A stretch of DNA of 64,000 nucleotides from Ruegeria marina (GTDB taxonomy: Bacteria > Pseudomonadota > Alphaproteobacteria > Rhodobacterales > Rhodobacteraceae): the NCBI RefSeq assembly GCF_900101475.1, contig NZ_FMZV01000008.1, positions 62,001 through 126,000 of the forward strand, given 5' to 3'. The translations under genes and the position numbers were made by a program. Shown here one piece after another: positions 6,050 to 59,513 of the stretch. Numbering within the stretch: the first letter of the stretch is position 1; every line of letters begins with the position of its first letter. Under the pieces are notes generated by a model that did not search any database, was not told the origin of the DNA, and saw only the letters and a list, made by a program, of their open reading frames with translations.

Positions 6050-6058
6050 GTCCCGGAC

Positions 6059-39625: not shown

Positions 39626-39814
39626 TTCAGGGAATATGGCGGGTTCTCGCTTGTCCTTTGGCGGTCGCTTGACGAACCTGACGATCCGGATACCGTCCTG
39701 CAAAAATGAGGCGGGCTGGCAAAAAAATCAGCTCAAAAAAAAACAGCCATGATTTCTCCACATTTGGTGGGGATCATCGGTTTCGTGCACCAGGCAGGCA
39801 ACGGAGCATATCAA

Positions 39815-42052
39815 ATGAGCGGCCTAACCACTTCCAGCGACAGCAATCTGCTGGACCAATTCGTATCGCCCCTTTTTGGATTCTCGGAGACCGAAACTTT
39901 TGCCGGACCCAATGGAAAAGCTAAGGTCTCGGCCACCGGGGGCAATGATGTCGTGTTGGGCACGCCGGGGGACGACAGCCTGACCGGCGAAGGTGGCAAC
40001 GACACGCTTGTGGGCGATGCCGGCAATGACATACTGATCGGGGGCGAGGGGCTCGACCTCGCGATGGGCGGTTTTGGCAACGATTTTCTGTCGGGCGATG
40101 CAGGCGATGACCTGCTGCTTGGTGATGACGGGAACGACACGCTTGACGGCGGTACCGGTGCCGACACGCTGGATGGCGGCCAGGGCGATGACATGATCAA
40201 CGGCGGGGCCGGTAGCGACAACCTGTCGGGTGGCGCGGGTGCAGATTTTCTTTCCGGTGACGGACCCGGCACTGCAACGTCTTTTGGCCACGACACCATC
40301 ATGGCGGGCGCCGGCAATGACACGATCTGGGGGGGGATGGGTGATGACATCCTCAACGGAGAGGCCGACGACGACAAAGTCGACGGCGGTGACGGCGATG
40401 ACCAGGTCTTCGGCGGCGACGGAAACGACACGCTTTCTGCGGGTGCCGGCAACGATTATCTCAGCGGCGACGCCGGAATGGACACGCTTTGGGGCGGTGA
40501 TGGCAACGACGTGCTGTCCGGAGGTCTTGGTAATGACGCGCTGTACGGCGGTGCCGGTACCGACACGCTGGATGGCGGCGAGGGCGATGACACGATCATC
40601 GGCGGGGCCGATAGCGACAACCTGTCGGGTGGCGCGGGCGCAGATTTTCTTTCGGGTGACGGACCCGGCACTGCAACGTCTTTTGGCCACGACACCATCT
40701 TGGCGGGCGCCGGCAATGACACGATCTGGGGGGGGATGGGTGATGACATCCTCAACGGAGAGGCCGACGACGACGTAGTCGACGGCGGTGATGGCGATGA
40801 CCAGGTCTTCGGCGGCGACGGAAACGACACGCTTTCGGCTGGCGCCGGCAACGATTCTCTCAGCGGCGAAGCAGGAAATGACACGCTTTGGGGCGGTGAT
40901 GGCAACGACGGGCTGTCCGGCGGTCTCGGCGATGACGCGCTATACGGCGGCACCGGTGCAGATACCATGATGGGTGAAGAAGGGCACGATTTTCTAAATG
41001 GTGGCTGGGGAGGAGATTTCCTCATCGGCGGTGGCGGGAATGACACTCTGCATGGCAATGGAGGGAACGACTATTTCGAGGGCGGGTGGGGCAACGACCT
41101 CGTGGAGGGTCATAATGGAGAGGATACCCTTCATGGAAACGAGGGCCATGACACCCTGATTGGCGGTGGTGACATGGACTTCCTGGAAGGCCATGACGGA
41201 AACGACCTGATGAATGGCGGCGACGGCGCCGACACATTGTTTGGCGGCGCCGGCGATGATGTGATGCTCGGGGGCAGTGGAGACAACTTTCTGCGCGGCG
41301 ACGAGGGCATGGACAGCATGGTCGGTGGTGTCGGCGCCGACTTGATGATTGGCGGCTCCGGGAATGACACGCAGTCGGGGAATGACGGTAATGACAATCT
41401 CAATGGGGGCGTCGGTGATGACCTCATGATCGGCGGCAGTGGCAATGATCGAACCTACGGCGACTTCGGAAACGACACGGCGGACGGCGGCGCGGGCGAC
41501 GATACGCTCTTCTCGCGCTCAGACGGCGGACAACCGGTGCTCGACCAGGTCAGGCGCGCCAACGGCGAGTTCCAGTATATCGTCTACGAAGATGCCAACG
41601 ATGTTCTTACTGGGGGCGCGGGGGCGGACGAGTTCATCTTCCGGCTCGACATGAATGCCACGGCCGAGGTGCTGGCACGGAACACCAACCTGGATGGCAC
41701 CGTCGACTGGATGTCAATAATGATGGAGAATGACAATTATCACGACCATTGGGTCGAGGCCATCGGGAACGATGTGATTACCGATTTTACTCCCAGCGAA
41801 GGCGACACCTTGGTGATCAGCGGTCATACCGTGTCGGTCACGCTGGAACAGGTGGACGAAGATGGCGACGGAGCCATGGATTATACGCTGCTGATGTTGA
41901 TGAGCGTTCAACCCATGGTGAACGGCGCGCATCACAATGATTCCCTGGGCACGATCCGTGTCTATGGCGAAGCTTTCACCCTTGCCGACATTTTAGTCGA
42001 CCCCAGCGCAATGTGGGATGCATACGACTCCCGAGAGGAGTTTCTCCTCTAA
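39815..42052 (+). CDS. RTX-type calcium-binding repeat protein, probably type I secreted
   Basis: The protein has 745 residues from ATG 39815, chosen because GGAG lies 9 bases upstream; ATG 39749 is in frame without a site. After a 45-residue N-terminus almost the whole chain is glycine/aspartate nonapeptide repeats (GGxGxDxLx), several dozen copies that form Ca-bound beta-rolls. The last 150 residues carry ANDVLTGGAGADEFIF and ITDFTPSEGDTLVISG, typical of C-terminal secretion regions. No catalytic domain is visible, so a structural or adhesive surface role is likely, possibly holding the exopolysaccharide. No T1SS genes lie nearby. A 133-residue segment is duplicated in tandem. Confidence 0.88.
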   Translation: MSGLTTSSDSNLLDQFVSPLFGFSETETFAGPNGKAKVSATGGNDVVLGTPGDDSLTGEGGNDTLVGDAGNDILIGGEGLDLAMGGFGNDFLSGDAGDDLLLGDDGNDTLDGGTGADTLDGGQGDDMINGGAGSDNLSGGAGADFLSGDGPGTATSFGHDTIMAGAGNDTIWGGMGDDILNGEADDDKVDGGDGDDQVFGGDGNDTLSAGAGNDYLSGDAGMDTLWGGDGNDVLSGGLGNDALYGGAGTDTLDGGEGDDTIIGGADSDNLSGGAGADFLSGDGPGTATSFGHDTILAGAGNDTIWGGMGDDILNGEADDDVVDGGDGDDQVFGGDGNDTLSAGAGNDSLSGEAGNDTLWGGDGNDGLSGGLGDDALYGGTGADTMMGEEGHDFLNGGWGGDFLIGGGGNDTLHGNGGNDYFEGGWGNDLVEGHNGEDTLHGNEGHDTLIGGGDMDFLEGHDGNDLMNGGDGADTLFGGAGDDVMLGGSGDNFLRGDEGMDSMVGGVGADLMIGGSGNDTQSGNDGNDNLNGGVGDDLMIGGSGNDRTYGDFGNDTADGGAGDDTLFSRSDGGQPVLDQVRRANGEFQYIVYEDANDVLTGGAGADEFIFRLDMNATAEVLARNTNLDGTVDWMSIMMENDNYHDHWVEAIGNDVITDFTPSEGDTLVISGHTVSVTLEQVDEDGDGAMDYTLLMLMSVQPMVNGAHHNDSLGTIRVYGEAFTLADILVDPSAMWDAYDSREEFLL
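40151..40948 (+). repeat. Tandem 399-bp duplication inside the RTX gene
   Basis: Copies at 40151-40549 and 40550-40948 are nearly identical over long stretches, including the non-RTX insert GDGPGTATSFGHDTI in both. The unit is exactly 133 codons, so the frame is maintained. The high DNA identity suggests a recent duplication. Confidence 0.88.
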
Positions 42053-42579: not shown

Positions 42580-43187
42580 GACACCCAGCTTCTCCTCTGA
42601 ATAGAGTAGGTAGAGCCTCTTGTGGTTCACGATCATTCCCTTGCGCTCCTGCATGACGCCGATACGCCGGTAGCCGAACCGGCTGCGCCTGGCAGCGACG
42701 GCCTTCATCTCTGCCCTGATCTCTGGATTGTCCGGCGGGCGTTCATGTCGGGCCGTCTTCGGATTCACACCGACAAGTCGGCAGGCTCGACGCTGCGAGA
42801 CATTATGATCCCGAATCGCCTTGAGCGCTGCCTCGTGCCGCTCATTCGGTGTCGTCGACTCTTTACCAGAAGGTCGTTGAGCACCACGTTGTCCAGCGTC
42901 GTGTCCGCCTGCAGGCGCTTGAGCTTGGCTTTCTCGTTTTTCAGCGCCTTCAGCTTGGCGGCGTCAGACACTTCCATACCACCATACTTCGATTTCAACT
43001 TGTAGAACGTGCTCTGGCTGACGCCTTGCTTGCGGCACACCTCGTCCGTAGGCATGCCAGCGTCCTGTTCCTTGATCATTTCGATGATCTGCGCCTTGGT
43101 GAAACGGCTCTTTCGCATTCGTTTGCTCCTTCGAAAAGTTGAGCAAACTCTACATCGGCGTGAGGGAAGTTTCGGGGGGCAGGTCAA
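42580..43187 (-). mobile_element. IS3-family element remnant (orfA plus start of orfB)
   Basis: OrfA runs from ATG 43118 with MRKSRFTKAQIIEMIKEQDA and the HTH segment CRKQGVSQSTFYKLKSKYGG, followed by the leucine-zipper-like NEKAKLKRLQ. OrfB is present in the other frame only as its beginning (AALKAIRDHNVSQRRACRLV, then NPKTARHERPPDNPEIRAEM and FGYRRIGVM) and loses similarity after EEKLGV near 42590. The rve/DDE core is missing. The outer end at about 43157-43187 reads TTGACCTGCCCCCC on the minus strand and matches the scar at 15804-15835. Confidence 0.8.
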
Positions 43188-43524
43188 ATCCCTCGCAAGA
43201 CCGGGGCCGTCCAACAATGACCGCACTCAGCTCCGAGACCGTTTCGTGTTCGTCTTGCCGCGCCTCTGCCCAATCACGGCGTTCGGTATCGACATCGGCA
43301 ACCGGAGGCTGGCTGCACAAGGCCAACTCAAGGCGATTTCCCCTCGCCAGCGTGCGTCAGAAGTTGATCTCATTGCCCCGAACCCGCCGGGAACGCTCTG
43401 TCAAGCCGCCGATTTTTTGTAGTAATCCCATACGACCGAGCTATTAATGGGAGCAGTTTTCCGGTGATCCGACGCCCATTCCGGGCACAGGCTCCTTAGG
43501 TAAAAAAGTGGGAGGTGACCAACG
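43188..43524. other. Unassigned spacer left of the sensory module
   Basis: Open frames of up to about 70 codons occur on both strands but none shows a recognisable family. One minus-strand frame (ending in VGRPRSCEG) runs into the IS3 end and may be a gene fragment cut by it. The last 100 bases are AT-richer (a T-run near 43413 and an ATGGGA/TCCCAT pair near 43426-43452) and probably contain the promoter of the binding-protein gene. Confidence 0.45.
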
Positions 43525-44673
43525 ATGAAACATCGGGGGGGAACCCGGCGGGGGCCGGCTGACATCGCGCCGAACACCACCAGACGCAAAGCGCTTTTCG
43601 CGGCGGCGACCGTGAGCGCAGGGGCCTTGGCGGCGCCGTTTGTGGGTAACGCGCAGGTCTCGGGCGGACGGAAGCTCACGATCCAGTCGCTCTGGACCGA
43701 GAATACGATCGGCTACCGGACATTCAAAACCTGGTGCGAAAGCATCGTCGAACTGACCGAGGGCGAGATCGAATTCGTCCCTTTCGCGGGCGGAACGGTT
43801 TCTGAAATCTTCGACATGATGACCGCCACTTCGGCGGGGGTGCTCGACGGAATGCACTGGGTGCCGCATTACGCCGCGATCACCGGGGCGATGCCGGCCG
43901 GGGCTTTGCTGACGTCCTTCCCGATGGGGCTGCCGCATCCGCATCAATGGGACATGTTGTTCGACAGCTACGGTGGCACCGAACTGGCCCGCGAACTCTA
44001 CGCACGCCATGGCCTGCATTACGTCGGCCACGTCCACCACGACATGAACCTCATTCATTCCAACAGGCCGATCCGCTCGCTGGACGATTTCCGGGGGCTG
44101 AACCTTCGGATGCCCGGTGGGATCGTGGCCGACTGCTTCGAGGCCATCGGCGCGCGGACCATCGCGCTCGCGGGGTCTGAAGTACAGCCTGCGCTGGCCT
44201 CCGGCGCGATCGACGCTGCGGACTTCACCGGCCCGGCGATGAATTACGACCTCGGCTTTGCCGATGTCAGCAAATATATCGTCATGGGTCCGACCTCGAC
44301 GCCCTGCCTGCATCAGCCGGTCGACCTGACGATCGTCGTTTTCAACCAGGACGTCTGGAACAGCTTCACAGCCGCGACGCAGGACCTGCTGACAGAGCTT
44401 GTCCGCGCCTTTTCGGTCAAGCACTTCACAGCTCACCAGGAGGCCAATATCGCCGCCTGGACAAAGTTCGCTGAGGCCGGCGTGGAGATCACGCGGCTGT
44501 CCGAGGACGACGTGGAGCGGTTCCGCAAGATTGCTCTGCCCCTTTGGTTCGAATGGGCGAACCGGGACACCGATTCCGCGCGGGTCTTCAAGCTGCACCT
44601 CGATGTGATGCTCAATCCGGCAGTGGCCTACATCAACCCCGACGACATCAAGGACTTCGAACTGAAGCTCTGA
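43525..44673 (+). CDS. Orphan TRAP-type (DctP family) binding protein with Tat signal
   Basis: The protein has 382 residues, starting at ATG 43525 behind GGGAGGTGA. A twin-arginine signal TTRRKALFAAATVSAGALA precedes a DctP/TakP-like fold (VEVIRG is absent; NLRMPGGIVADCFEAIGARTIALAGSEVQPAL and AIDAADFTGPAMNYDLGFA are visible in pieces). Relatives bind 2-oxo acids and similar carboxylates. No DctQ/DctM genes follow. Instead it is followed by a hybrid histidine kinase, an HPt protein and a receiver-transporter fusion. A periplasmic sensing role comparable to TorT with TorS is therefore likely (inference). Confidence 0.88.
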   Translation: MKHRGGTRRGPADIAPNTTRRKALFAAATVSAGALAAPFVGNAQVSGGRKLTIQSLWTENTIGYRTFKTWCESIVELTEGEIEFVPFAGGTVSEIFDMMTATSAGVLDGMHWVPHYAAITGAMPAGALLTSFPMGLPHPHQWDMLFDSYGGTELARELYARHGLHYVGHVHHDMNLIHSNRPIRSLDDFRGLNLRMPGGIVADCFEAIGARTIALAGSEVQPALASGAIDAADFTGPAMNYDLGFADVSKYIVMGPTSTPCLHQPVDLTIVVFNQDVWNSFTAATQDLLTELVRAFSVKHFTAHQEANIAAWTKFAEAGVEITRLSEDDVERFRKIALPLWFEWANRDTDSARVFKLHLDVMLNPAVAYINPDDIKDFELKL

Positions 44674-44731
44674 CGCAGAGGTGACCCGACCGGGCGAACG
44701 CCCCGGCGCGTTGTGCGGAGAAGGGTGCGCA

Positions 44732-47700
44732 ATGGCAACAGCAGATGACGAAAGGTCCGGTCTCGCGGCCCTGCTTCCCTACACGATCCGAGGCAAGCTC
44801 CTTCTGGTCGTCGTCATCTTCTTTCTGTCGGCAGCCATCAGCGCGCTGATCGCGCACCGCGCTAACCTCGTAATTCAAGAGCAGCTTGCCTCGATCTCCA
44901 ACGAGAGCATCCCGGCCCTCGTCATCGCGCATCGGGTTGCCGAAGACACAACGAACATCCGCAACGCCGCCGCCTCGGTTGCCACCTCCGACAACGCCGA
45001 ACAGCTTGCCGCCCGGATGGCGACGCTGAAGGGGTACCTGGACCGCATCCGGTTGGTCATCAACGAACTGGAAAAACGCGGCAGCGGCGCCGAGACGGTC
45101 CTCAGCCTCGAGTCCTCGGTCCGTGACGTCGGCGCGCTGTCGGAGAAACTTGCCACCATCATCGCGCAGAGGATCGAGCTGGCCGGAACGCTTGGCAGCC
45201 AGGTTCAGAGCCTTGCCCGAACCCACGCAGCGTTCAACCGTTCCATGGAACCCCTGATCGCCGAGCAACTCGAAGTCCTCAGCGCCGAAAGCGACCGCGT
45301 GAACGCCAGCACCGAGGCCTCGGTCGCCTTGTTGAACGACCTCGGAGTCCGGGGGTTGATCCCGCTGCTGACGATGCAGGTCCAGCTTGGGATCATCGAG
45401 CGATCAATGATCGGCGCGCTCAGCGCCTCGACGGACGAAGCTCTTCGCGACAATTGGAGCGCTTTTGTCACCTCGAGTTCAGTCGCCGCGCGCAACGTCG
45501 ATGAACTGCGAGACAACGGCCCGGTTCGGCAGGTGGTCGATGTCGAAGAATTGTCCGAGATGATTGACCAGATCATAGCCCTCGGTGCAGGCGCGGACGG
45601 CATCTTTGAACGCCGCAGGTCCGCGCTGGCCGACCCCACGGCGGCTTTCGATGCGCAAGAAACCGAACGCGACCTGCGCCGGACCGTCTTGCAGCTCGAC
45701 GTCGTTCTGCGGCGCTCGATCATCCTGATCCGGGGCCAGGCCGTCACGGTGGGCGCCAACCTCAGCAGCCAGGTCGCGGCCAGCCTCGACGCCATCAATG
45801 ACGCCAGCGTCGTCGGCTACGGGACACTTCTGGCGCTGGAAACGCTCGGCAACCGGACCGTTGGCATACTTTCTCTGGCGCCATTTGCAGAAGACCGGGC
45901 CGGGCTGAATGGGTTGCGGGCGGATCTTGGTGCGGTGGCGACCGAAACTTCGGCGCTGATCGCCCGCCTCGGCCCGCGCACCGACGTTTCGGACACCGCC
46001 GACTTGGCAGAGCGCCTGATCGGCTTCGGCTTCGGTGGAGGAGGAGAGACGGTTTTCGGCCTGCGCGCGCGTGAGCTTGGCGCGCTGGAGCAGGCCGAAG
46101 GGCTGCTTCTCAGAACCAACGAGCTCACCGAGAGGATGAGTGGTCTTGCCGCGACCATCGTTTCCGAAACCCGCCAGTCCACCGACGCCTCGGCCGCTGC
46201 GGTGCTTTCGTCGCTCCAAGCAAGTCGGCTGACCCTCGCTGTTGTTCTCATCGCCTCGCTCGTGGTGATCCTCGGTGCCTTTGCCTATGTAAACCGCAGC
46301 CTCGGCTCGAGGCTCAGCGCGTTCAGCAACGCCGCCTTGTCCCTCGCCGAGGGCGATCTGCACGTCCCCCTGCCAAAGCCCACCGGACGCGACGAGGTCT
46401 CACGTCTGATGCGCGCGCTGACTGTTTTCCGCGACACGGCCGTCGAAATGGAGCAGAGCAACCTGCGCGAGATCGCCGAGACCCGGCAGCGGTTGATCGA
46501 CGCCATCGAGAGCATCTCGGAGGGCTTTGCCTTCTACGACGCCGACAACCGGCTTGTCCTGTGCAACACCCGCTACCGGGATTTCTTGGGCGACCCGGCC
46601 GGAGACTTCGTTCGACCTGGCCGCTTGGCAGAAGAGATCGCCCAAGACGTGCCGCCGGGCTCGGGCCTGCGACTCGAGGCCGATCGGAGCGGTCAAGCGC
46701 CGCGGGCGTCGAACGTTCGGAAGTTGCAGGACGGACGCTGGGTCCAAATCGACAAACGGCGAACAAGCGACGGCGGCTCGGTCTTGGTATATTCGGACAT
46801 CAGCGAGCTTAAGCAGCGGGAAAGCGAACTAACCCAAGCCAAAGAGCAGGCCGAAGCCGCCAACGAAGCAAAAAGCTCATTCCTGGCTACGATGAGCCAC
46901 GAAATCCGGACGCCGCTCAACGGGATCATGGGGATGAGCAGCCTGCTTGCCTCGACGAAGCTCGACGCCGAGCAGCGCGAATTTGCCACCACCATCGGCG
47001 ATGCAGCTGACACGCTGTTGACCATCATCAACGACATCCTTGACTTTTCGAAGGTCGAAGCCGGGGCGCTCGACCTTGAGGAGCTTGAGATCGACCTTGT
47101 CGAAGCGGTGGAAGCAGCGGTGGAACTGGTTATTCCCAAGGCGGACGAGAAAGGCGTTGAACTGGCCTGCCGGATCGCGCCCGAGGTTCCGCGCGGCGTG
47201 GTGGGCGACCCGACCCGGCTTAAGCAAGTGTTGCTCAACCTGCTGAACAATGCCGTGAAGTTCACGGAAAAGGGTGAGGTCCTTCTTGGCGTGAGCCTTG
47301 CCGAGTCCGTGCCCGAGGCAGGCGACACCGCGCATGTCACCTTTTCGGTTTGCGATACGGGTATCGGCATTCCCGCCGACCGCATGGACCGCCTCTTTCG
47401 CTCATTCAGCCAGGTCGACGCCTCGACGACACGGCGCTACGGCGGTACCGGGCTAGGTCTCGCCATCAGTCAGCGGCTTGTCGAAAAGATGGGCGGCAAG
47501 ATCGAAGTCGAGAGCAAGCCCGGGTACGGCTCTACCTTTTCCTTCGCTTTGCCAATGCGGCGCTGCGCCTTGCCCGACCGCAACGACCGGCAGGCCCGGA
47601 TTGAGGCGTTGCGTGGCAGGACCGCGCTTGTGGTGGACGACAACCTGACCAACCGGCGGATCATCGATGAAAGGCTCCGTGCTTGGGGCATGTTGCCCGA

Positions 47701-48445
47701 GGCCCTGGGAGACCCGTACGGAGCGCTTGAGCGCCTCAAGGGCGAACCGGCCATCGACGTGGTGATCATCGACTACAAGATGCCGGAAATGACCGGGCTC
47801 GAACTGGCTCGGCGGGTCCGCACCGCACTTGGAGAGGCTGCGCCGCCGATGATCCTTTTCACTTCGCTCACCCCCGCCGAGCCGGCTTTCTGGGTCGAGA
47901 TCCGCAAAGCCGGCTTTGCCTCGGTGCTGGCGAAGCCGCCGAAGTCTGCACAACTCCTGCAAGCCCTCGCCTCGGCGGTCGGCTGGCAGGAACGGCACGC
48001 CGCGCCAGAGGCCGAAGCTCCCGAGGTCCCAGCTGAGGCACTGTCGATCCTTCTTGTCGATGACAACCGGATCAACAGGAAGGTCGGGCAGAAGATGCTC
48101 GCCAAGAACGGCTACGGCTCCGACCTCGCCTGCGGCGGTGCCGAGGCGGTCGGGCTGGCGGCCGGCGGGACCTACGACGTCATCCTGATGGACATTGAGA
48201 TGCCCGATATGGATGGGGTAGAAGCCGCCGCCGAAATCCGACGCGCCTTCGAGGGGCGGCCGCGGCCCTATATTGTGGCGCTGACAGCGAACGCGCAGAC
48301 CTCGGCGCGGGATACCTACCTAGACGCGGGAATGGACGACTACCTAAGCAAACCGGTGGACGAAGCGGCACTGGTTGCCAGTCTCAAGCGCGGCGCGACC
48401 TTCCGGCAGGCGCAGCGCGGGGATGGCGAAGGACGTGAACATTGA
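44732..48445 (+). CDS. TorS-like hybrid sensor histidine kinase with two receiver domains
   Basis: The protein has 1237 residues from ATG 44732, behind GGAGAAGG; GTG 44681 is in frame without a good site. Layout: TM1 (about 21-41), a long helical periplasmic domain to about 498, TM2 (500-521), HAMP (522-575), a PAS domain (about 585-695, SISEGFAFYDADNRL), HisKA with phospho-His723 (ATMSHEIRTPLNG), HATPase with DTGIGIP and GTGLGLAI, receiver 1 with Asp1014 (IDYKMPEM) and receiver 2 with Asp1154 (LMDIEMPDMDG, then ALTANA and YLSKP). The long helical sensor domain fits a TorS-type kinase reading a binding protein. No HPt domain at the C-terminus; a separate one follows. Confidence 0.93.
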   Translation: MATADDERSGLAALLPYTIRGKLLLVVVIFFLSAAISALIAHRANLVIQEQLASISNESIPALVIAHRVAEDTTNIRNAAASVATSDNAEQLAARMATLKGYLDRIRLVINELEKRGSGAETVLSLESSVRDVGALSEKLATIIAQRIELAGTLGSQVQSLARTHAAFNRSMEPLIAEQLEVLSAESDRVNASTEASVALLNDLGVRGLIPLLTMQVQLGIIERSMIGALSASTDEALRDNWSAFVTSSSVAARNVDELRDNGPVRQVVDVEELSEMIDQIIALGAGADGIFERRRSALADPTAAFDAQETERDLRRTVLQLDVVLRRSIILIRGQAVTVGANLSSQVAASLDAINDASVVGYGTLLALETLGNRTVGILSLAPFAEDRAGLNGLRADLGAVATETSALIARLGPRTDVSDTADLAERLIGFGFGGGGETVFGLRARELGALEQAEGLLLRTNELTERMSGLAATIVSETRQSTDASAAAVLSSLQASRLTLAVVLIASLVVILGAFAYVNRSLGSRLSAFSNAALSLAEGDLHVPLPKPTGRDEVSRLMRALTVFRDTAVEMEQSNLREIAETRQRLIDAIESISEGFAFYDADNRLVLCNTRYRDFLGDPAGDFVRPGRLAEEIAQDVPPGSGLRLEADRSGQAPRASNVRKLQDGRWVQIDKRRTSDGGSVLVYSDISELKQRESELTQAKEQAEAANEAKSSFLATMSHEIRTPLNGIMGMSSLLASTKLDAEQREFATTIGDAADTLLTIINDILDFSKVEAGALDLEELEIDLVEAVEAAVELVIPKADEKGVELACRIAPEVPRGVVGDPTRLKQVLLNLLNNAVKFTEKGEVLLGVSLAESVPEAGDTAHVTFSVCDTGIGIPADRMDRLFRSFSQVDASTTRRYGGTGLGLAISQRLVEKMGGKIEVESKPGYGSTFSFALPMRRCALPDRNDRQARIEALRGRTALVVDDNLTNRRIIDERLRAWGMLPEALGDPYGALERLKGEPAIDVVIIDYKMPEMTGLELARRVRTALGEAAPPMILFTSLTPAEPAFWVEIRKAGFASVLAKPPKSAQLLQALASAVGWQERHAAPEAEAPEVPAEALSILLVDDNRINRKVGQKMLAKNGYGSDLACGGAEAVGLAAGGTYDVILMDIEMPDMDGVEAAAEIRRAFEGRPRPYIVALTANAQTSARDTYLDAGMDDYLSKPVDEAALVASLKRGATFRQAQRGDGEGREH

Positions 48446-48459
48446 ACTGGGGGGAAACG

Positions 48460-48840
48460 ATGGAAAACGCTGACATAGACCTGGCCGCGTTGAAACGGCT
48501 GCTGGAGGTCGTGGGCGGAGATGTCGAAGAACTCGAGGATCTGCGGAACGACTACTTTGAGGACGCCCCCGAGCTCGTCCGGCGCATCCTTGACGCAGCG
48601 GGCAGAGCAGACCTTACGGCCCTAAAGATCGCCGCCCATACGCTAAAGTCGAACGCCCGTGATTTCGGCGCGGCGCGGCTGGCGGAGCTTTGTGCCGTGC
48701 TCGAAAGGACGTGCCTTGAAGGCGGTCCGGAGGACCCCGTCGGGCTTGCCCGGCGTATCCGGGACGAAGAGGACCTTGCCAGGCGCGCGCTCGCGGGCTT
48801 GAACCTTGGCGATCTTGAAGGGCCACGGTCCGAAAGATGA
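48460..48840 (+). CDS. Histidine phosphotransfer (HPt) protein
   Basis: The protein has 126 residues from ATG 48460, behind a G-rich ribosome site 14 bases after the kinase stop. A single four-helix HPt domain with the conserved AAHTLKSNARDFGA, phospho-acceptor His60. It would shuttle phosphate from the kinase receivers to the receiver of the next protein, whose start codon overlaps its stop (ATGA). The small size and clear motif make this assignment firm. Confidence 0.92.
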   Translation: MENADIDLAALKRLLEVVGGDVEELEDLRNDYFEDAPELVRRILDAAGRADLTALKIAAHTLKSNARDFGAARLAELCAVLERTCLEGGPEDPVGLARRIRDEEDLARRALAGLNLGDLEGPRSER

Positions 48841-50360
48841 TTGACCTGCCCCCCCCAGACACCACCGCCGAGGCATCGGTCCTGATCGTCGACGACAGCC
48901 GAGTCAGCGGCCGCAAGCTTGGCAAGGCGGTCACCGCGCTCGGCCACCGGACCCAGCTTGTCACCGGCGGCGCCGAGGCGCTTGCCATCTTGCGCGAGAC
49001 AACTTTCGACATCGTGCTTCTCGACATTGTCATGCCCGAGGTGGACGGCTACCAGGTGCTGAGCGTCATGAAGGCCGATGCCGCGTTGCGCGACATCCCG
49101 GTCATCGTGATCTCGGCGCTGGACGAAGAGATCGACAGCGTCGCCCGCGCCATCGAACTTGGCGCGGAGGACTTTCTGCCCAAGAACTTTGAGCCGGCCA
49201 TTCTCAAGGCTCGGATGAACGCCTCTCTCGCCCGCAAACGGTTCCGCGACCGAGAGCTCGCCTATTTCCGCGACATCGATACGTTGACCAGGGCCGCCCA
49301 GGTGATCGAGGGTGGGGCTTTTCGTCCGACGGAACTCGCCATTGCAGACGTGGCCGCACGGAACGATCCTCTGGGCGGGCTCGCCAAAGTCTTCCGCAGC
49401 CTGGCCGAGGAAATCTACGACCGCGAGCGCCGCGCCGACCTGACGGTGCGCACCCTTCGCGGCACGCTTCTGGTTCTCGCGGCGGGCAGCATCTTCGGGA
49501 TCGCGCCCGCGCTTGGCCGTCTCGCCTCGGCCCGCGATGTGCCGCCGCTGGGGCTGGTATTCTGGTCGGCGGTCGTCGCCTCGGCGGTTTGCCTTTCGGC
49601 GTCGGTCCTTCGCCGGGGACTGCCGCGCCTGAAATTGCGGGACTTCGGGTTTCTCGCGCTTTGGGCGGTGCTGCTCGGCTCGCTCTACCAACTTCTGACC
49701 GTGGTAATCGCGGCCCATGTCGAGGCCACGATGATTGCGCTGATCGGAAGTTCGCGGGGGTTCATGGTTTTCCTGCTGGCTGCGCTTCTGGCGCTCGAGC
49801 GTCCAAGCCTGCGGCGTTTCTTCGGTCTCGGGGTCGGCTTCGCCGGGATAGCCGTCGTTCTTCTGATGCAGGGTGCCGGTGGTGAGGGCGAACTTCTCTG
49901 GCAGATCTCGGCGCTGGTGCTTCCCTTCCTTTTGTCGCTGCATACGCTTCTGATGTCCTGGCGCCCGAGGCACATCGACGCTGGCGCGACAGTCGGGTTG
50001 ATGATGGCGCTTTCGGCGCTGTTCCTGCTGCCCTTTGCCGCTGCCCAGGACGCTTTGTTCCTTCCCTCGGCCTCGTTCGGCCAGCGCGAGATCATCGTGC
50101 TCGCGCTCGGCGTATCGACAGCCGCCGCGCTGGTTCTGGCACTTGAACTCGTGGCGACGGCGGGGCCGGTCTTTGCCAGTCAGATGGCCTATTCCCAGAC
50201 GCTGGCCGGGATCGCATGGGGGATGCTGTTGTTGGGCGAACGTCTTTCGCCGCTGGCTTGGGGCTCGCTCGTGCTAGTGATCGTTGGTTTCTGGCTGGTC
50301 GAGCCGAAGCGCGCGGGGGACGATTTCCGGATCACGCTCAGGATGCGGGGCAGGCAGTAG
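48837..50360 (+). CDS. Receiver domain fused to an EamA/DMT-family transporter
   Basis: The protein has 507 residues. Residues 13-130 are a complete CheY-like receiver: acidic pair Asp19-Asp20 (VLIVDDSRVSG), phospho-acceptor Asp63 (VLLDIVMPEVDG), Ser93 and Lys116 (FLPKN). Residues about 131-203 form a helical linker (GGLAKVFRSLAEEIYDRERR) like that after receivers in some signalling proteins. Residues about 205-500 hold ten hydrophobic helices in two EamA halves (GSIFGIAPALGRLA; QMAYSQTLAGIAWGMLLLGE). The expected output is transport, not DNA binding. The 4-base overlap with the HPt gene links their synthesis. Substrate and direction are unknown. Its stop lies just before a truncated transposase. 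Confidence 0.9.
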   Translation: MIDLPPPDTTAEASVLIVDDSRVSGRKLGKAVTALGHRTQLVTGGAEALAILRETTFDIVLLDIVMPEVDGYQVLSVMKADAALRDIPVIVISALDEEIDSVARAIELGAEDFLPKNFEPAILKARMNASLARKRFRDRELAYFRDIDTLTRAAQVIEGGAFRPTELAIADVAARNDPLGGLAKVFRSLAEEIYDRERRADLTVRTLRGTLLVLAAGSIFGIAPALGRLASARDVPPLGLVFWSAVVASAVCLSASVLRRGLPRLKLRDFGFLALWAVLLGSLYQLLTVVIAAHVEATMIALIGSSRGFMVFLLAALLALERPSLRRFFGLGVGFAGIAVVLLMQGAGGEGELLWQISALVLPFLLSLHTLLMSWRPRHIDAGATVGLMMALSALFLLPFAAAQDALFLPSASFGQREIIVLALGVSTAAALVLALELVATAGPVFASQMAYSQTLAGIAWGMLLLGERLSPLAWGSLVLVIVGFWLVEPKRAGDDFRITLRMRGRQ

Positions 50361-50365
50361 CCGAG

Positions 50366-50926
50366 GTGGCCTGGTTCTGGTGGTACCGGTTCGGGCCGAT
50401 ATTTGCCAACGAGATCGGAAAACGATTTGTCGAAGGGATGAAGTCGAGCCGATCATGCTGGCATCTCGACGAGATGTCCGTGAAGATCAATGGCGAACCC
50501 CACTACCCGTGGCGGGCTGTGGATCACGAGGGCGAAGTCCCTGAGAGCTACGTCACGAAGAAGCTGGACAAGAAGGCCGCGCTGAAATGTCTAAGGAACG
50601 CAATGCGTAAGCATGGACACCCCGAAGTGGTCGTGACCGACAGGCTCCGGTCCCACGGTGCCGCCCTGAGGGAAGTTGGTGCGGGGCGTCGCCGGCAAAC
50701 GGGGCGCTGGCTGAACAATCAGGTCGAAAACTCACACCTGCCGTTTCGACGACGAAAACGGTCAATGCTAAGGTTCCGGAGGATGCGAAGTTTGCAGATG
50801 TTCGCCGCCGTTAACGCCTCGGTCTTCAACCATTTCAATTCTAAGCGCCGCCTCGCCTGCCGACAAATTTTCAAGCTCAACCGCGCTGTCGCTCTTGCCC
50901 GGTGGCGTAAACTTGCTGTGGCATAA
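50366..50926 (+). pseudogene. 5'-truncated IS6-family transposase
   Basis: Similarity begins abruptly at VAWFWWYRFGPIFANEIGKR, only a few bases after the transporter stop. The N-terminal HTH region and start codon are missing. The DDE core is intact: first Asp in CWHLDEMSVKING, second in VTDRLRSHG, Glu in NNQVENSHLPFRRRK. The frame stops at TAA 50924-50926. The copy at 847-1554 keeps the N-terminal region but has lost the first Asp, so the two have decayed independently. Confidence 0.85.
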
Positions 50927-51695: not shown

Positions 51696-51720
51696 ATATT
51701 GAGCTAATTGTGCTCAATAT
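51696..51720. promoter_or_regulatory. Dyad operator between XRE-cupin regulator and aminotransferase operon
   Basis: ATATTGAGC and GCTCAATAT form perfect 9-bp arms around a 7-base spacer (TAATTGT). It ends 10 bases before the ribosome site (GGAGGG) of the aminotransferase gene, a position suited to repression. It is the best candidate site for the divergent regulator. Confidence 0.65.
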
Positions 51721-51740
51721 ACTCTTGCATGGAGGGCGAG

Positions 51741-53042
51741 ATGCCGCGAACCAAGGATCTTATCGACCGGCGTAAAGCGGCGGTGGCCAATGGCGTTGCG
51801 ACGCGTCGCATCTATGCGGCACGCGCCGAAAACGCCGAATTGTGGGATGTTGACGGCAAGCGCTATCTCGATCTTGCCGCCGGGATCGCGGTTAACAATA
51901 CCGGCCACCGCCACCCCAAATTGATGGCGGCGGTTGCGGCACAGGCCGAGGCCTTTACCCATACCTGTTTCCACGTTGCGCCTTATGAGGGTTATGTGCG
52001 TCTGGCCGAGCGGTTGAACGCGGCTACTCCGGGGGATTTCGCCAAAAAGACCATGCTGGTCACGACCGGGGCCGAAGCGGTTGAAAACGCGGTCAAGATG
52101 GCGCGGGCCTTTACCGGACGGTCGGGTGTGATCGCTTTTTCGGGCGCGTTTCATGGCCGCACTCTGATGGGGATGGCGCTTTGCGGCAAGGTTCAGCCCT
52201 ACAAGCGCTCCTTTGGAGCGATGCCGCCCGAGGTGTATCATGCGGTCTTCCCGAACGCCTATCACGGGGTCACGCCCGAGATGAGCCTGGCGCAGATCCA
52301 ACAACTCTTCCGCTCCACGATCGATCCGGAACGGGTGGCGGCGATCATCATCGAGCCGGTACAGGGCGAGGGCGGGTTCAACGTCGCGCCGCCAGAGTTC
52401 CTGCGCGGGCTGCGGGCAGTGTGCGATAGGCATGGGATCGTGCTGATCGCGGACGAGGTGCAGGCGGGCATGGCGCGGACCGGCAAGCTCTTTGCCATGG
52501 AACATGCAGGTGTGGCGGCCGACCTGGTGACGATGGCCAAGGGGCTGGCCGGGGGCTTTCCCCTGTCGGCGGTCACGGGCCGGGCCGAGATCGTCGATGC
52601 GGCGCCGCCGGGCGGGATCGGGGGTACCTATGCGGGTAATCCGCTGGCCGTGGCCGCCGCAAATGCAGTGCTGGATGTCATAGCGGACGAGGGGTTGTGC
52701 ATTCGGGCCGAACAGGTGGGCGATGTGTTGCGTCAACGGCTAGAGGCGATGGCCGCGCGGCAGGGGATGGAGGCGATCGGCGATGTGCGCGGCGTCGGCG
52801 CCATGGTGGCGTTCGAACTGGTCACCGACCGGGCGACACGGGCGCCTGATGCAGCCCTGACGCAGGCGATCGTGGCCGAGGCCGAGGCGCGCGGGCTGAT
52901 CATCCTGCCCTGTGGCACGTATGGCAACGTGGTGCGCCTGTTGCCACCGCTGACCGTTCCGATGGCGCAGGTAGACGAGGCCCTCGATATCCTCGAAGCC
53001 GCGCTTGAGGCGGCCATCGGCAAGGCGGCGCGGGCGGCCTGA
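51741..53042 (+). CDS. Class III omega-aminotransferase (4-aminobutyrate aminotransferase-like)
   Basis: The protein has 433 residues from ATG 51741, behind GGAGGG. PLP fold type I, class III: TTGAEAVENAVKMARAFTGR, FSGAFHGRTLMGMALCG, EPVQGEGGFNVAP, the Asp-containing LIADEVQAGMARTG and the PLP Lys in VTMAKGLAGGFPLSAV. It moves the terminal amino group of a substrate such as GABA to 2-oxoglutarate, giving a semialdehyde. The aldehyde dehydrogenase gene follows, fitting a GABA-type route, but beta-alanine or 5-aminovalerate are equally possible. Confidence 0.92.
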   Translation: MPRTKDLIDRRKAAVANGVATRRIYAARAENAELWDVDGKRYLDLAAGIAVNNTGHRHPKLMAAVAAQAEAFTHTCFHVAPYEGYVRLAERLNAATPGDFAKKTMLVTTGAEAVENAVKMARAFTGRSGVIAFSGAFHGRTLMGMALCGKVQPYKRSFGAMPPEVYHAVFPNAYHGVTPEMSLAQIQQLFRSTIDPERVAAIIIEPVQGEGGFNVAPPEFLRGLRAVCDRHGIVLIADEVQAGMARTGKLFAMEHAGVAADLVTMAKGLAGGFPLSAVTGRAEIVDAAPPGGIGGTYAGNPLAVAAANAVLDVIADEGLCIRAEQVGDVLRQRLEAMAARQGMEAIGDVRGVGAMVAFELVTDRATRAPDAALTQAIVAEAEARGLIILPCGTYGNVVRLLPPLTVPMAQVDEALDILEAALEAAIGKAARAA

Positions 53043-53070
53043 GTCCGCTATCCCAACTGGAGGAACTGCG

Positions 53071-54501
53071 ATGAAAATGAACCTCGTTGCCGGGGAATGG
53101 GTTGGCGCGTCCGATGCGTCGGAAAACCGCAACCCGGCGAACCGGGCCGACCTGATCGGGCTTTATGCCCAGGGTTCGACGGAGACGGTGCAAGCGGCGG
53201 TGGCGGCCGCACAAGGCGCGCTCGCGGATTGGGCGGCCAGCACGCCCCAACGCCGAGCGGATCTGTTGGAAACGGTGGCCCAGGCCATTCTGGCGCGCGC
53301 GGACGAGATCGGTCATCTGCTGGCGCGAGAGGAAGGCAAGACGCTGGCCGAAGCACGCGGCGAGGCGATGCGCGCCGGGCAGATCTTTCGCTTTTTCGCG
53401 GGCGAGGCGCTGAGGATCTGCGGCGATGCATTGGCCTCGGTCCGTCCTGGGGTGAGCGTCGAGGTGACGCGCGAGCCCGTGGGCGTGGTCGGGATCATCA
53501 CGCCGTGGAATTTCCCCATCGCGATCCCGGCATGGAAAATCGCCCCGGCGCTGGCCTATGGCAATACCGTGGTGTTCAAACCCGCCGACCTGACGCCGGG
53601 CTGTGCGCATCTGCTGGCCGAAATCCTGCACCAGGCGAGGGTGCCTGCCGGCGTGTTCAACCTGGTGATGGGGCGCGGCGCGGTGGTGGGAGATGCCCTC
53701 GTGAAACATCCCGGCGTCGATGCGATTTCCTTCACCGGCTCGGTGCCGGTGGGCCGGGCGCTGGCTGCCGATGCCGCGCGGGGTCTGAAAAAGCTGCAAC
53801 TCGAGATGGGCGGCAAGAACCCGATGGTGGTTCTGAACGACGCCGATCTCGACCTCGCAGCAGAGGTCTGCCTGAATGGTGCGTTCTATTCGACCGGGCA
53901 GCGTTGCACCGCGTCGTCGCGGCTGATCGTCGAAGCGGGTATTCATGATGCCTTTGTCAAACGGCTGGTGAAAGGGGCGCAGACGCTGCGCGTGGGCGAC
54001 CCGCTCGACAGTGCAACCCAGGTCGGGCCGGTGGTGTCTGACGCGCAATTGCAGGGCAATCTCGCCTATGTCAGCCTGGCGCGGGACGAGGGCTGCGAAG
54101 TGATCGGCGGCGAGCGGCTGAACGGCAAGGCCGAAGGGTACTTTCAGCGGCCTGCGGTTTTCCTGGGGGCGTCGAACAGGATGCGTTCGAGCCGGGAAGA
54201 GATTTTCGGGCCTTGCGCCAGCGTGATCAAGGCCGCCGATTTCGAAGAAGCGCTGACGCTGGCCAACGATAGCGAATTCGGCCTGAGCGCGGGCATCTGC
54301 ACCGGCAGTCTGAAACATGCGCGCGCGTTTCGGCAGCGGGCAAAGGCTGGAATGGTGATGGTCAACCTGCCAACCGCCGGGGTCGACTATCATGTGCCCT
54401 TCGGCGGGCGAAAGGGGTCGTCCTATGGCCAGCGGGAACAGGGACGCTATGCCGCCGAGTTCTATACCACGGTCAAGACCGCCTATGAGTTCGCAGGATG
54501 A
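53071..54501 (+). CDS. NAD(P)-dependent aldehyde dehydrogenase (semialdehyde-type)
   Basis: The protein has 476 residues from ATG 53071, behind GGAGGAA. Aldehyde dehydrogenase hallmarks: GIITPWNFPIAIPAWKIAPA, the general base Glu in LEMGGKNPM and the nucleophilic Cys in STGQRCTASS. It oxidises the semialdehyde formed by the preceding enzyme to a carboxylic acid. Similarity in layout to succinate-semialdehyde and 2-oxoglutarate-semialdehyde dehydrogenases is strong, but substrate cannot be fixed. The stop overlaps the kinase gene start by 4 bases. Confidence 0.92.
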   Translation: MKMNLVAGEWVGASDASENRNPANRADLIGLYAQGSTETVQAAVAAAQGALADWAASTPQRRADLLETVAQAILARADEIGHLLAREEGKTLAEARGEAMRAGQIFRFFAGEALRICGDALASVRPGVSVEVTREPVGVVGIITPWNFPIAIPAWKIAPALAYGNTVVFKPADLTPGCAHLLAEILHQARVPAGVFNLVMGRGAVVGDALVKHPGVDAISFTGSVPVGRALAADAARGLKKLQLEMGGKNPMVVLNDADLDLAAEVCLNGAFYSTGQRCTASSRLIVEAGIHDAFVKRLVKGAQTLRVGDPLDSATQVGPVVSDAQLQGNLAYVSLARDEGCEVIGGERLNGKAEGYFQRPAVFLGASNRMRSSREEIFGPCASVIKAADFEEALTLANDSEFGLSAGICTGSLKHARAFRQRAKAGMVMVNLPTAGVDYHVPFGGRKGSSYGQREQGRYAAEFYTTVKTAYEFAG

Positions 54502-55595
54502 GCGGGATGGAGGCCATTCTGGCGATCAACCCCGGCACAACGACGACGCGCTGCGCGCTCTACGCGCCGCGCGGCGGTGCGGTGGAACTGCTGGCAGAAG
54601 AAACCTTCGAGCATGACGAAGCCGAGATGGCGCAGTTTTCGAACATCGCGGCCCAGCTCGACTTTCGTGCGGCCCAGGTGGCGGCGTTTCTGGACTGGCA
54701 TCCGGATGTGCGGCTGGTGGCCTGCGCCGGGCGGGGCGGCATGCTGACGCCGGTCCCGGCCGGGGTGATCGAGGTTTCCGACGCGTTAGTCGCTGTCGCG
54801 CTGCACCGCCCGGTTTACCAACATGCCAGCAATCTGGGGGCACCGCTGGCGCATCGTATTGCCAGCGCGCAAGGCGCGCGCGCCTTCATTGTCGATCCGG
54901 TCAGCGTGGACGAACTGGCGCCCGTGGCGCGGGTTTCGGGTTTTGCCGAGATCCCGCGGTTTTCCTTTGTTCATGCGTTGAATATCCGCGCCTGCGGTCG
55001 GCGGCTGGCAAGCGATCTGGGCAAGCCGTTTGACGAATTGCGCGCGGTGGTAGCGCATTTGGGGGCCGGGTTTTCCATCGCGGCACTGCTGGGCGGGCGC
55101 CTGGTCGACAGTTCGAACCGGATGGAATCCTCGCCTTTTACGCCGGAGCGGGCGGGCGGCCTGCCACCGCTGCCCCTGATCGAGCTTTGCTATTCGGGGC
55201 GCTACACGCGCCAGGAACTGCTGAACAAGCTTTACGGGCAGGGCGGGGTTTACGGGTTGCTAGGCACCAAGGACATCCGCCGCGTAGAGGCGATGATCGC
55301 GGCAGGCGACGAGAGAGCGGCGCTGGTGTTCGAGGCGATGCTCTATCAGGTGGCCAAAACGGTGGGCGCAATGGCTTCGGTGGCGGATTTCGATCTCGAC
55401 GGGATCGTTCTGACCGGTGGATTGGCCAACAGCTCCCGCGTGCGCGGATATCTCGACGGCAAGCTGGCGCGGTTGGCGCCCCTCTTCACCTATCCGGGTA
55501 GCGACGAGTGTCGGGCGCTGGCCGAAGGTGCCGCGCGGGTGCTGTGCGGGACCGAGCAGGCGATGCGCTGGCCGCTTGCGGCGCAAGCGGCATGA
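54498..55595 (+). CDS. buk: Butyrate kinase-family acyl kinase
   Basis: The protein has 365 residues, with ATGA overlap to the dehydrogenase gene. ASKHA-fold motifs: AINPGTTTTRCALY near the N-terminus (phosphate 1), VAHLGAGFSIAAL and the adenosine motif IVLTGGLANSSRV near the C-terminus. The length and YSGRYTRQELLNKLYGQGG segment match butyrate kinases rather than acetate kinases. It interconverts a short-chain acid plus ATP with the acyl phosphate. Directly upstream of phosphate butyryltransferase, it would either activate the acid produced by the dehydrogenase or recover ATP. Such genes are typical of fermenters, so finding them here is notable. Confidence 0.88.
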   Translation: MSGMEAILAINPGTTTTRCALYAPRGGAVELLAEETFEHDEAEMAQFSNIAAQLDFRAAQVAAFLDWHPDVRLVACAGRGGMLTPVPAGVIEVSDALVAVALHRPVYQHASNLGAPLAHRIASAQGARAFIVDPVSVDELAPVARVSGFAEIPRFSFVHALNIRACGRRLASDLGKPFDELRAVVAHLGAGFSIAALLGGRLVDSSNRMESSPFTPERAGGLPPLPLIELCYSGRYTRQELLNKLYGQGGVYGLLGTKDIRRVEAMIAAGDERAALVFEAMLYQVAKTVGAMASVADFDLDGIVLTGGLANSSRVRGYLDGKLARLAPLFTYPGSDECRALAEGAARVLCGTEQAMRWPLAAQAA

Positions 55596-56539
55596 CAGCG
55601 GTACGGTCGTTCGCGGCGCTGCGCGGGTTTGCCCGCGCCGCTGCCCCGCTGCGGCCCGTGGTGGCCGGCGGTGAAGCGACAGAGGTAATCGTGGCGCTGG
55701 CGACCATGCTGGAGAGCGGCTTGATCGACGGCGCGGTGGTGACTGGCGATTCCGAGGCAATGGCGCCGTTGATGATTCCGGAGTTGCACGGGGCCATCGA
55801 GGTCGTGCCGGCTTCTGGCGTCCATGAATGCGCCCGCGCGGCCGTGGCCGCCATTCGCGCGGGGCGCGGCGATGTGCTGATGAAAGGCCATGTCGACAGC
55901 ACCAGCTATCTGCGCGCGGTGGTCGACCGCGCCGACGGGTTGCGCGACGGCGATGTCCTGTCGAATGTGACGGTGGCGGAAATGCCCTCGCTCGGGCGGC
56001 TGATCGCGGCGACGGATAACGGCATCCTGCCGATGCCGACGCTGGAACAGAAGCGTCAGATCGTGCGCAATACCACGGCACTTTTCGCCGGGCTGGGTGT
56101 GCGGCCTGTAAAGGTGGCCGCCGTTTGCGCGACCGAAAAGGCCAGTGATGCGATTCCGGCGACACGCGACGCTGAGGCGCTGGCGCGCGGGGGGCTGCCC
56201 GGGTTCGAGATCGGCGGGCCGATGGGCTATGACGTGGCCGTGTCGCCCGAGGCGGCGCGGATCAAGGGTCTACAGGACATGCCGGCGGCGGGGGCGGCGG
56301 ATTTGCTGCTGTTTCCCACAATCGACGCGGCCAATGCCGTGGCGAAGGCATGGAAATTCCACGGGCAGGCGGAAACCGGCTCGATCGTGCTGGGCGCGCG
56401 GGTTCCGGTACTATTGAACTCGCGCTCGGATTCGGCGGCGCGGCGGGTGAATGCGCTGCTGCTTGCAGGCGCGATGCTGCGCGGGCGGGCGGCAGCCGGA
56501 TCAGGCGGGGCGAAGCGCCGCGCTGCGCTGGAACTCTGA
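55592..56539 (+). CDS. ptb: Phosphate butyryltransferase-family enzyme
   Basis: The protein has 315 residues from ATG 55592 (4-base overlap with the kinase). It has the phosphate acetyl/butyryltransferase fold with DVLMKGHVDSTSYLRAVVD, LSNVTVAEMPSLGRL and the C-terminal VLLNSRSDSAARRVNALLLA, all typical of the family. It exchanges phosphate and CoA on a short-chain acyl group. Together with the kinase it links free acid and acyl-CoA. Its final 39 bases overlap the end of the convergent AraC-family gene. Confidence 0.9.
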   Translation: MTAVRSFAALRGFARAAAPLRPVVAGGEATEVIVALATMLESGLIDGAVVTGDSEAMAPLMIPELHGAIEVVPASGVHECARAAVAAIRAGRGDVLMKGHVDSTSYLRAVVDRADGLRDGDVLSNVTVAEMPSLGRLIAATDNGILPMPTLEQKRQIVRNTTALFAGLGVRPVKVAAVCATEKASDAIPATRDAEALARGGLPGFEIGGPMGYDVAVSPEAARIKGLQDMPAAGAADLLLFPTIDAANAVAKAWKFHGQAETGSIVLGARVPVLLNSRSDSAARRVNALLLAGAMLRGRAAAGSGGAKRRAALEL

Positions 56540-57463
56540 TGGCGTCATCCCGAACTTGGCCTTGAACAGACGCGAAAACTGCGCCTGATCGGCAAAGCCG
56601 AACCGATAGGCCACCTCGGAAATCGGCAGATCGCGCGAGGCCTGGAGCCGGTCGCGCGCGGCCACCAGCCGCTGATCGCGGATCTGCTGGCTGACCGTGC
56701 CGTTCACATCCTTGAACAGATCATGCAGGTACCGCTTGGAGATGCCGCAGGCTTCGGCGATGAGATCGGGGGACAGATCGGGGTCTTTCAGGTTGGCGCG
56801 GATGTATTTCTCGACCCGCGAGAGATGTGCGGCGCGGACCGAGGAATAGCCGCTTTCGCTCGCGTTCGATGCGTCGTTGAGCGCAAGGCCCAGAAGTTCA
56901 AGCAACTGGCGACCGATGGTTTCGCGGGCCGTCGCCGTAAGATCGTCGATCTGGCTCTGCGCGTGGCTGACCATGGTGGCGAAAAGCCCCGCCGTTCCGG
57001 TGGTGGCGTCGATGACCCGGGCGCAAAACCGGTCGGGTTGGCGCACCCGCTCGGCCAGCGCCCGGCGGCTGACCTTGAGCACATAGAGATCGTTGGGGCG
57101 CTCGTAGAGGAAGCGATAGGGTTCATCGCCACGTTCGATGATGAACCCGCCGGGATCGCAGCGCACATCGCGGCCCAACTGGCGAAACTCGACCGAGGTG
57201 GCGCGGGGCAGGGTGACCAGATACTGCTCTTCCTGCGCGCTCCGGATATGCGAGCGACGGCGTTCATAGTTCACCGGATCAGAGGTCAGCCGCGACATGC
57301 CGACATGGCCAAGCTCGGAGCGGGTCAGTTCGCCGTCGAACCGTACCGGATCGCGGAATTGCAGCTCGAGCGGAAAATAGGCTTCTGACACTACTGCATT
57401 CCATTTGCTGGAACGATGCTGCGGCTCTGTCGCACTCGTCGAAAAGCGGAACGCGGCTGTCAT
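56501..57463 (-). CDS. AraC-family transcriptional regulator
   Basis: The protein has 320 residues from ATG 57463, behind GGGAGGA. The N-terminal part matches the AraC-binding-like domain (PF14525 type; SELGHVGMSRLTSDPVNYER). The C-terminal 100 residues hold the double HTH (LIAEACGISKRYLHDLFKDV; EVAYRFGFADQAQFSRLFKA). It is divergent from the hydantoinase operon by 271 bases and may activate that operon rather than the kinase/transferase genes it converges with. Confidence 0.9.
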   Translation of the reverse strand: MTAAFRFSTSATEPQHRSSKWNAVVSEAYFPLELQFRDPVRFDGELTRSELGHVGMSRLTSDPVNYERRRSHIRSAQEEQYLVTLPRATSVEFRQLGRDVRCDPGGFIIERGDEPYRFLYERPNDLYVLKVSRRALAERVRQPDRFCARVIDATTGTAGLFATMVSHAQSQIDDLTATARETIGRQLLELLGLALNDASNASESGYSSVRAAHLSRVEKYIRANLKDPDLSPDLIAEACGISKRYLHDLFKDVNGTVSQQIRDQRLVAARDRLQASRDLPISEVAYRFGFADQAQFSRLFKAKFGMTPSEFQRSAALRPA

Positions 57464-57582
57464 CGATTGGTCCTCCCACCGTGAACGTTACGTCAGGGAG
57501 CACGCGAAACCAAAGGAAAACAGGCGTTCTGCGCTCTGCGTCAACTCATCCTGCGCTGGCTGACAAATTATACTGCGCCATT

Positions 57583-57645: not shown

Positions 57646-57734
57646 GATCGACGTGCGGAAGGAATGCGCCGAATCCGGGAAGAACCAAGACCCGGCTGGC
57701 GCGGCTTCTGCACCCAAGCAGAGGACCGGAAACC

Positions 57735-59486: not shown

Positions 59487-59513
59487 AGTCTCTGACATAA
59501 AAGGATTATTCTC

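Follow-up and report, generated by a model that had tools for sequence, protein, structure and literature searches.

A receiver–EamA transporter fusion at the end of a phosphorelay operon in Ruegeria marina: a candidate response-regulator output

The DNA considered here is a 64,000-nucleotide stretch of the alphaproteobacterium Ruegeria marina (assembly GCF_900101475.1, contig NZ_FMZV01000008.1, positions 62,001 to 126,000 of the forward strand; hereafter the window, with positions counted from its first letter). On its plus strand lie four consecutive genes, which run from a DctP gene through a hybrid histidine kinase and a histidine phosphotransfer (HPt) protein to a receiver domain fused to a membrane transporter of the EamA/drug–metabolite transporter (DMT) kind. 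The open reading frames (ORFs) as called span 43525–44673, 44681–48445, 48442–48840 and 48837–50360, and Pfam agrees with the kinds of gene that a first-pass annotation, made from the letters alone, had placed there. The first gene (43525–44673, +) encodes a DctP/tripartite ATP-independent periplasmic (TRAP)-type, family 7 solute-binding protein (PF03480, 8.6e-39), presumed to be a sensor subunit, with a twin-arginine translocation (Tat) signal motif recognised by eye. The kinase matches HAMP, PAS_7, HisKA, HATPase_c and two Response_reg stretches. It had been called ‘TorS-like’, a description that stands for the sensor region, where residues 77–197 match TorS_sensor_domain at 27.5 bits against a cut-off of 27, but not for the whole protein, which at 492.7 bits falls far under the NCBIfam TorS equivalog cut-off of 676.5. 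The third gene is a stand-alone HPt protein (PF01627, 1.7e-13), and the fourth (48837–50360, +) a fusion protein of 507 amino acids, of which this genome holds a single copy. A possible second fusion on contig C40, an EamA match within a 479-residue open frame, was rejected as such; counted from its first start codon the ORF there has 450 residues, with no receiver motif recognised by eye, and it is taken instead for an EamA gene overlapped by a frame upstream.

In the closest relative (locus L001) an in-frame stop lies upstream of kinase Met18, so the kinase likely starts at that residue (44732–48445, +), and since the HPt of the same locus (also numbered L094) begins at the methionine matching Met7 of the window protein, the HPt likely starts there (48460–48840, +). 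With these starts the sole overlap in the set is that of HPt and fusion, the 4 bases (48837–48840) that the annotation had noticed, and its residue numbers for the phosphorelay also hold: His723 of the kinase (codon 46898–46900), Asp1014 and Asp1154 in its two receivers, His60 of the HPt (48637–48639) and Asp63 of the terminal receiver (codon 49023–49025). The His–Asp–His–Asp set is thus complete.

The receiver of the fusion occupies residues 15–127 (48879–49217; PF00072, 6e-22) and matches RR468 and PleD in Foldseek searches. The receiver is complete in 20 of 21 aligned fused sequences, and none of the 20 has lost Asp19, Asp20 or Asp63; Ser93 and Lys116 are kept in 21 of 21. A linker of about residues 142–197 (49260–49427) follows; PF00672 (HAMP) is matched weakly by eight of nine such linkers, with E-values of up to 5 and a best value of 0.0012, and the linker is termed HAMP-like without being assigned as a HAMP domain. 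The transporter part, about residues 206–490 (49452–50306), contains two EamA stretches (PF00892, 1.2e-21). An AlphaFold model of the fusion as a monomer, built on a 21-row alignment that includes unfused and partial relatives (predicted local distance difference test, pLDDT, 84.6; predicted template modelling score, pTM, 0.66), has a helix at residues 120–159, a connector and a second helix at 178–220 which runs into transmembrane helix 1, and by our own reading of it the transporter part has ten helices. Its fold is matched by the triose-phosphate translocator 5y78 (template modelling score 0.73 by target), LicB 7paf (0.76) and SLC35B1 9i20 (0.67). With loop ends set by hand, the outer loops are poorer in lysine and arginine than the C-terminus and three of the four inner loops. 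Gln449, Tyr452 and Glu468 are kept in 18 of 18 fused transporters and Arg327, Trp355 and Trp461 in 17 of 18 (near copies L005, L009 and L103 dropped, and L012 treated apart), and all six are kept in six of six unfused relatives; because these residues are conserved alike in both groups, the sequences argue that the EamA part is still a working transporter.

When a sequence collection was searched with the fusion, 164 of 202 candidate stretches proved to be relatives; the best 80 loci were kept, and 12 of them hold a full-length fusion (L001–L011 and L014), as do three Mesorhizobium plasmid records. The full-length protein recurs in other records at 34–89% identity, which is not chance. Matches at E ≤ 1e-40 were found in 2 of 41 genomes near that of the window, in at least 9 of 394 genomes of its family (G354 matching by receiver and linker only and G288 being broken), in at least 1 of 385 of its class, that one being the window’s own, and in at least 3 of 398 of its phylum, all within the family; the last three counts are lower bounds, with three candidates scored per genome. 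The distribution is rare and patchy. Two weaknesses foreseen in the first-pass annotation, a stop or frameshift where two genes had been falsely joined and a receiver and transporter that are unlinked in homologues, do not apply here: the junction is unbroken, and the fusion is intact in 18 of 19 loci examined. The receiver–transporter design is real and conserved, not an artefact.

These 19 loci are the window, L094 (= L001), L002, L095 (= L003), L004–L011, L096 (= L014), L097–L100, L102 and L103, of which L004/L005, L008/L009 and L102/L103 are near-identical pairs. Most are alphaproteobacterial; two come from plasmids of Mesorhizobium, and one (L010) from a Granulosicoccaceae bin. The expectation that the fusion would co-occur with binding-protein, kinase and HPt genes is borne out for the last two. 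In 17 loci, all but L010 and L099, the HPt is the immediate neighbour of a fusion copy, and in 16 the kinase comes immediately upstream of the HPt; the kinase of L002 has a split frame and that of L011 lies on the other side. The histidine is present in the HPts of 17 loci, L005 being taken as a near copy of L004. The one interrupted fusion, in L099 (7762–8925), is a decaying copy in which a transposase (rve) separates kinase from receiver and the kinase frame is split too. Additional copies also occur. On the Brevirhabdus contig (L096 8498–11966, L014 12589–13584) two intact receiver–EamA genes stand in tandem upstream of the HPt, with a third, frame-broken copy behind it, and L097 has a second fusion on the opposite strand; the second-type copies L096b and L097b form their own clade. 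In the same bin as L010, a protein of receiver and linker ends after one hydrophobic stretch (L013, 9914–10651) and is perhaps a truncated fusion.

Whereas HPt and kinase recur, the DctP gene proposed as their partner varies among loci, being found upstream of the kinase in 7 of 19. Four others (L007, L096, L097 and L099) have a family-3-like binding protein; the three of these that were scanned had no Pfam match and 25–28% BLAST identity to the family-3 protein of L101, and that of L097 clusters with them. A SBP_bac_3 binding protein is present in L100, a protein resembling it adjoins the kinase in L011, and a convergent SBP_bac_3 gene lies in L098, while L008, L009, L102 and L103 have GAF kinases and no binding protein. 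Since the input may be DctP, a family-3-type protein or a GAF kinase, DctP cannot be counted as a fixed component, and what stays constant is the core of kinase, HPt and fusion. The DctP protein of the window has as its closest solved relative the lactate-binding TTHA0766 of Thermus (2zzv; E 1.1e-99). No DctM match was found within about 25 kb of the set on the contig, DctQ not having been searched for; DctM is matched 26 times in the genome, on this contig no closer than about 30 kb on the upstream and 26.5 kb on the downstream side. A Sinorhizobium sojae relative of the DctP protein (46% identical), by contrast, has DctQ directly downstream. This lack of a nearby DctM suggests that the binding protein may be used for sensing, and a guess at its ligand from homology would be lactate, or else a 2-hydroxy or 2-keto acid akin to it. 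L101 (1729–6829) has the same input module with a different ending: a family-3 binding protein, a hybrid kinase that itself includes an HPt, a receiver–linker protein without an output domain and a ParA-like gene.

Considering the place that the transporter takes in the relay, a comparison comes from the same genome, where contig C10 (L129; G000:C10:11000-19172, 14-6700) has in a row a hybrid kinase with seven GAF stretches, an HPt and a receiver–adenylate cyclase. The operon topology is that of the window set, with 46% identity over 533 residues in the kinase core with its two receivers, 30% over 89 in the HPt and 48% over 135 in the receiver. In L011, a receiver–acetyltransferase adjoins the kinase, and this was the only other receiver output among the subset of neighbours that was scanned. 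Because a cyclase and an acetyltransferase take that place elsewhere, the transporter occupies the effector slot of the system. What the sequence itself shows is the parts and their phosphorelay residues, a fusion and an operon that are both conserved, the purifying selection described below and this effector slot.

In an EamA tree of 21 fused and 11 unfused sequences, rooted on four transporters of the same genome (of 20 stretches with own-genome EamA genes, four rows passed the profile cut-off), a single clade with support of 99/98 unites the fused transporters with L012, which is unfused; six unfused relatives from Alpha- and Gammaproteobacteria adjoin this clade at 85/87. A warning from the tree program concerned long branches that join at the outgroup rows; given these branches and the 85/87 for the sister group, a single origin depends on the rooting. 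Subject to that, one fusion event with one receiver loss would be the simplest reading. Nested among the fused ones, the L012 protein (9992–10876) has neither receiver nor linker; the DNA within 4.5 kb of it likewise showed no receiver motif, and it is probably a secondary receiver loss. That it carries some other N-terminal domain was considered and rejected, its first 215 residues having no Pfam match and aligning poorly. Ratios of nonsynonymous to synonymous change (dN/dS) against the closest relative are 0.17 for the fusion (receiver 0.19, linker 0.05, transporter 0.16), 0.22 for the HPt, 0.06 for DctP and 0.15 for the kinase; against three further relatives, with synonymous sites near saturation, the fusion gives 0.13–0.19. 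The linker is the lowest of the three fusion parts in three of four comparisons. By these ratios the fusion is under purifying selection, both transporter halves included. The distances among HPts and among kinases correlate with those among receivers and transporters (Mantel r 0.79–0.89, p 0.0002, 12–13 loci) in tests uncorrected for the species tree, so that species relatedness alone yields part of the signal.

The four-gene set is flanked by transposase remnants at 42765–43226 and 50361–50926, the second of IS240 type (+; PF13610, 6.8e-29), which follows directly on the stop codon of the fusion, lies outside the system and marks its edge; similarity with L001 extends about seven bases beyond that stop and then ends. 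L002 has a transposase upstream, and the fusion copy on a Mesorhizobium loti plasmid has relaxase and TraG genes within 10 kb. Together with the patchy distribution, these features fit horizontal spread of the set. Against it, PLSDB types both examined Mesorhizobium plasmids as non-mobilizable, and the guanine plus cytosine content of the set (0.64) is close to that of the window (0.62).

The mechanism that we consider most likely, and a somewhat better than even bet, is phosphorylation-gated transport, in which phosphorylation of Asp63 would change the linker and thereby the transporter. Ligand bound in the periplasm by a solute-binding protein, which in the window belongs to the lactate-binding DctP type, would be presented to the membrane kinase, and the kinase would hand phosphate from histidine to aspartate, to the HPt histidine and on to Asp63; the phosphorylated receiver would rearrange the HAMP-like linker, and the last helix of that linker, continuous with transmembrane helix 1 in the model, would open, close or bias the EamA/DMT part. 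HAMP domains normally signal from membrane to cytoplasm, and the HAMP-like part would here signal in the reverse direction. Four points of this scheme are inferred: the sequence in which phosphate is passed on, gating of the transporter, sensing by the binding protein, and the identity of its ligand. The wider proposal, for which we see the chances as evenly balanced, is that response regulators have here an output of a new class. A phosphorelay would act directly, by way of the HAMP-like linker, to open or close a secondary transporter, and a periplasmic or cytoplasmic cue would in this way retune export or import without transcription. On this view the fusion arose once, when a receiver–linker module was attached to a subfamily of DMT proteins, and has since moved together with its kinase and HPt. 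Several observations weigh against this picture. The window linker scores 16.0 bits, under the Pfam HAMP cut-off of 25; in the comparison with L003 it is not the slowest part, its dN/dS of 0.20 being above the 0.16 of the transporter; and the helix continuity comes from a model of a monomer only, with its pTM of 0.66. Neither of the sister regulators, cyclase or acetyltransferase, shows such a linker in the alignment, so the coupling is not one that the fusion shares with them. The L010 fusion has no kinase or HPt nearby, and L012 means that the receiver–transporter linkage can break. Finally, operon and co-divergence would look alike if the transporter fed signals back.

That last possibility is the strongest rival, although we regard it as rather unlikely: the EamA part would be a sensor or transceptor, whose substrate or transport state alters the uptake or loss of phosphate by the receiver and feeds back through the HPt, the fusion acting on the kinase as a gauge or phosphate sink. 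The usual direction of HAMP signalling would suit it, and HPt relays can run backwards. Transporter domains are also reported to serve as inputs, as with the SLC5 part of CbrA and in an ammonium-transporter kinase (PMC7096432, PMC13022988, PMC5764959). However, the set has its own sensor, and the fusion holds the slot of the C10 cyclase and the L011 acetyltransferase, an argument weakened in turn by the subset of neighbours scanned, by the LuxR-type and Trans_reg_C-type DNA-binding genes that adjoin the fusion genes in L100 and L097, respectively, and by the second fusions in L096 and L097. Receivers often work through protein contacts, and stretches similar to the receiver–linker occur with other C-terminal outputs in records from distant phyla (judged by eye from the sequence ends), both of which would suit a role for phosphorylation in the amount, placement or partners of the transporter, by proteolysis, clustering or docking, instead of in the transport step. 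This we think improbable; mechanical coupling fits better, because the linker helix is predicted to be continuous with transmembrane helix 1 and the linker dN/dS is mostly the lowest. An EamA part that is a mere membrane anchor for the receiver would account for the lack of a known substrate, and is more improbable again, considering that transporter residues are conserved alike in fused and unfused relatives, that purifying selection covers both halves and that the receiver-less L012 is nested among the fused proteins. As for an assembly error or frameshift that joins two genes, the full-length fusions in 12 of the best 80 loci and on three plasmid records leave it a negligible chance.

Beyond the core and the binding proteins, the recurring neighbours by BLAST clustering were generic only, namely ATP-binding cassette (ABC) ATPases, an epimerase and a Trans_reg_C-type gene (L097, L101); clusters made only of the pairs L008/L009, L102/L103 and L004/L005 were left out. 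The single neighbours of four unfused EamA relatives held no common substrate hint. YcaO-type, cyclase-domain and animal-haem-peroxidase-like genes lie beyond the DctP gene in L094 (7381–13805), and L006 likewise has a peroxidase-like gene near the fusion. In the window, 39749–42052 encodes a 767-residue protein with 20 RTX nonapeptide stretches, and 51708–61634 is likely a lactam or omega-amino-acid catabolic cluster, with caprolactamase CapB and CapA above cut-off, GABA-transaminase-like, aldehyde dehydrogenase and butyrate kinase genes and a phosphobutyryltransferase-like gene that falls below cut-off, after which branched-chain-type ABC ATPases continue to 63127. A link between the fusion set and the caprolactam genes through a shared length of 583 residues was rejected; because the two proteins are unrelated and the genes lie beyond the insertion sequence remnant, no substrate was inferred from them.

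To our knowledge, the targets of response regulators are DNA, RNA, second messengers, proteins or motors. No description of a receiver–transporter output came up in searches of the open literature, a result that does not establish its absence from print; a co-mention in a table of PMC12487129 is unrelated. Relay, receiver and DMT transporter are each of known kinds and, as far as the searches reach, it is their combination as an output that is new. If true, metabolite flux would be a direct and fast target of two-component signalling, with transport switched by phosphorylation itself rather than via gene expression, and the fusion would offer both a system for asking how a receiver mechanically drives a membrane protein and a natural example for engineered ligand-controlled transport.

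Among known systems, the C10 operon shares with the window set its gene order and the overlap of its ORFs as called, and differs in its nucleotide cyclase output, its GAF kinase and the lack of a similar linker in the alignment. The window set shares with the TorT/TorS/TorR system for trimethylamine N-oxide a multi-step relay and a hybrid kinase whose sensor region is TorS-like and whose gene adjoins that of a binding protein. TorS, however, carries its HPt within the kinase, whereas in the window the HPt is a separate gene, the kinase has two receivers, the binding protein is of family 7 and the end receiver bears a transporter. TTHA0766 (2zzv) is the closest solved relative of the DctP protein, which, unlike it, adjoins a kinase and has no DctM match nearby. 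In LacS of Streptococcus thermophilus, a IIA domain on a galactoside transporter is phosphorylated by HPr; like the window fusion it joins a phosphorylated cytoplasmic domain to a secondary transporter, but it belongs to the sugar phosphotransferase system, not to a two-component relay, and to another transporter family. The SLC5–histidine kinases CbrA and CrbS and the ammonium-transporter kinase (papers cited above and PMC5715377) likewise combine a transporter with two-component parts in one polypeptide; there the transporter sits on the kinase, as an input, whereas in the window it sits on the receiver, at the output side.

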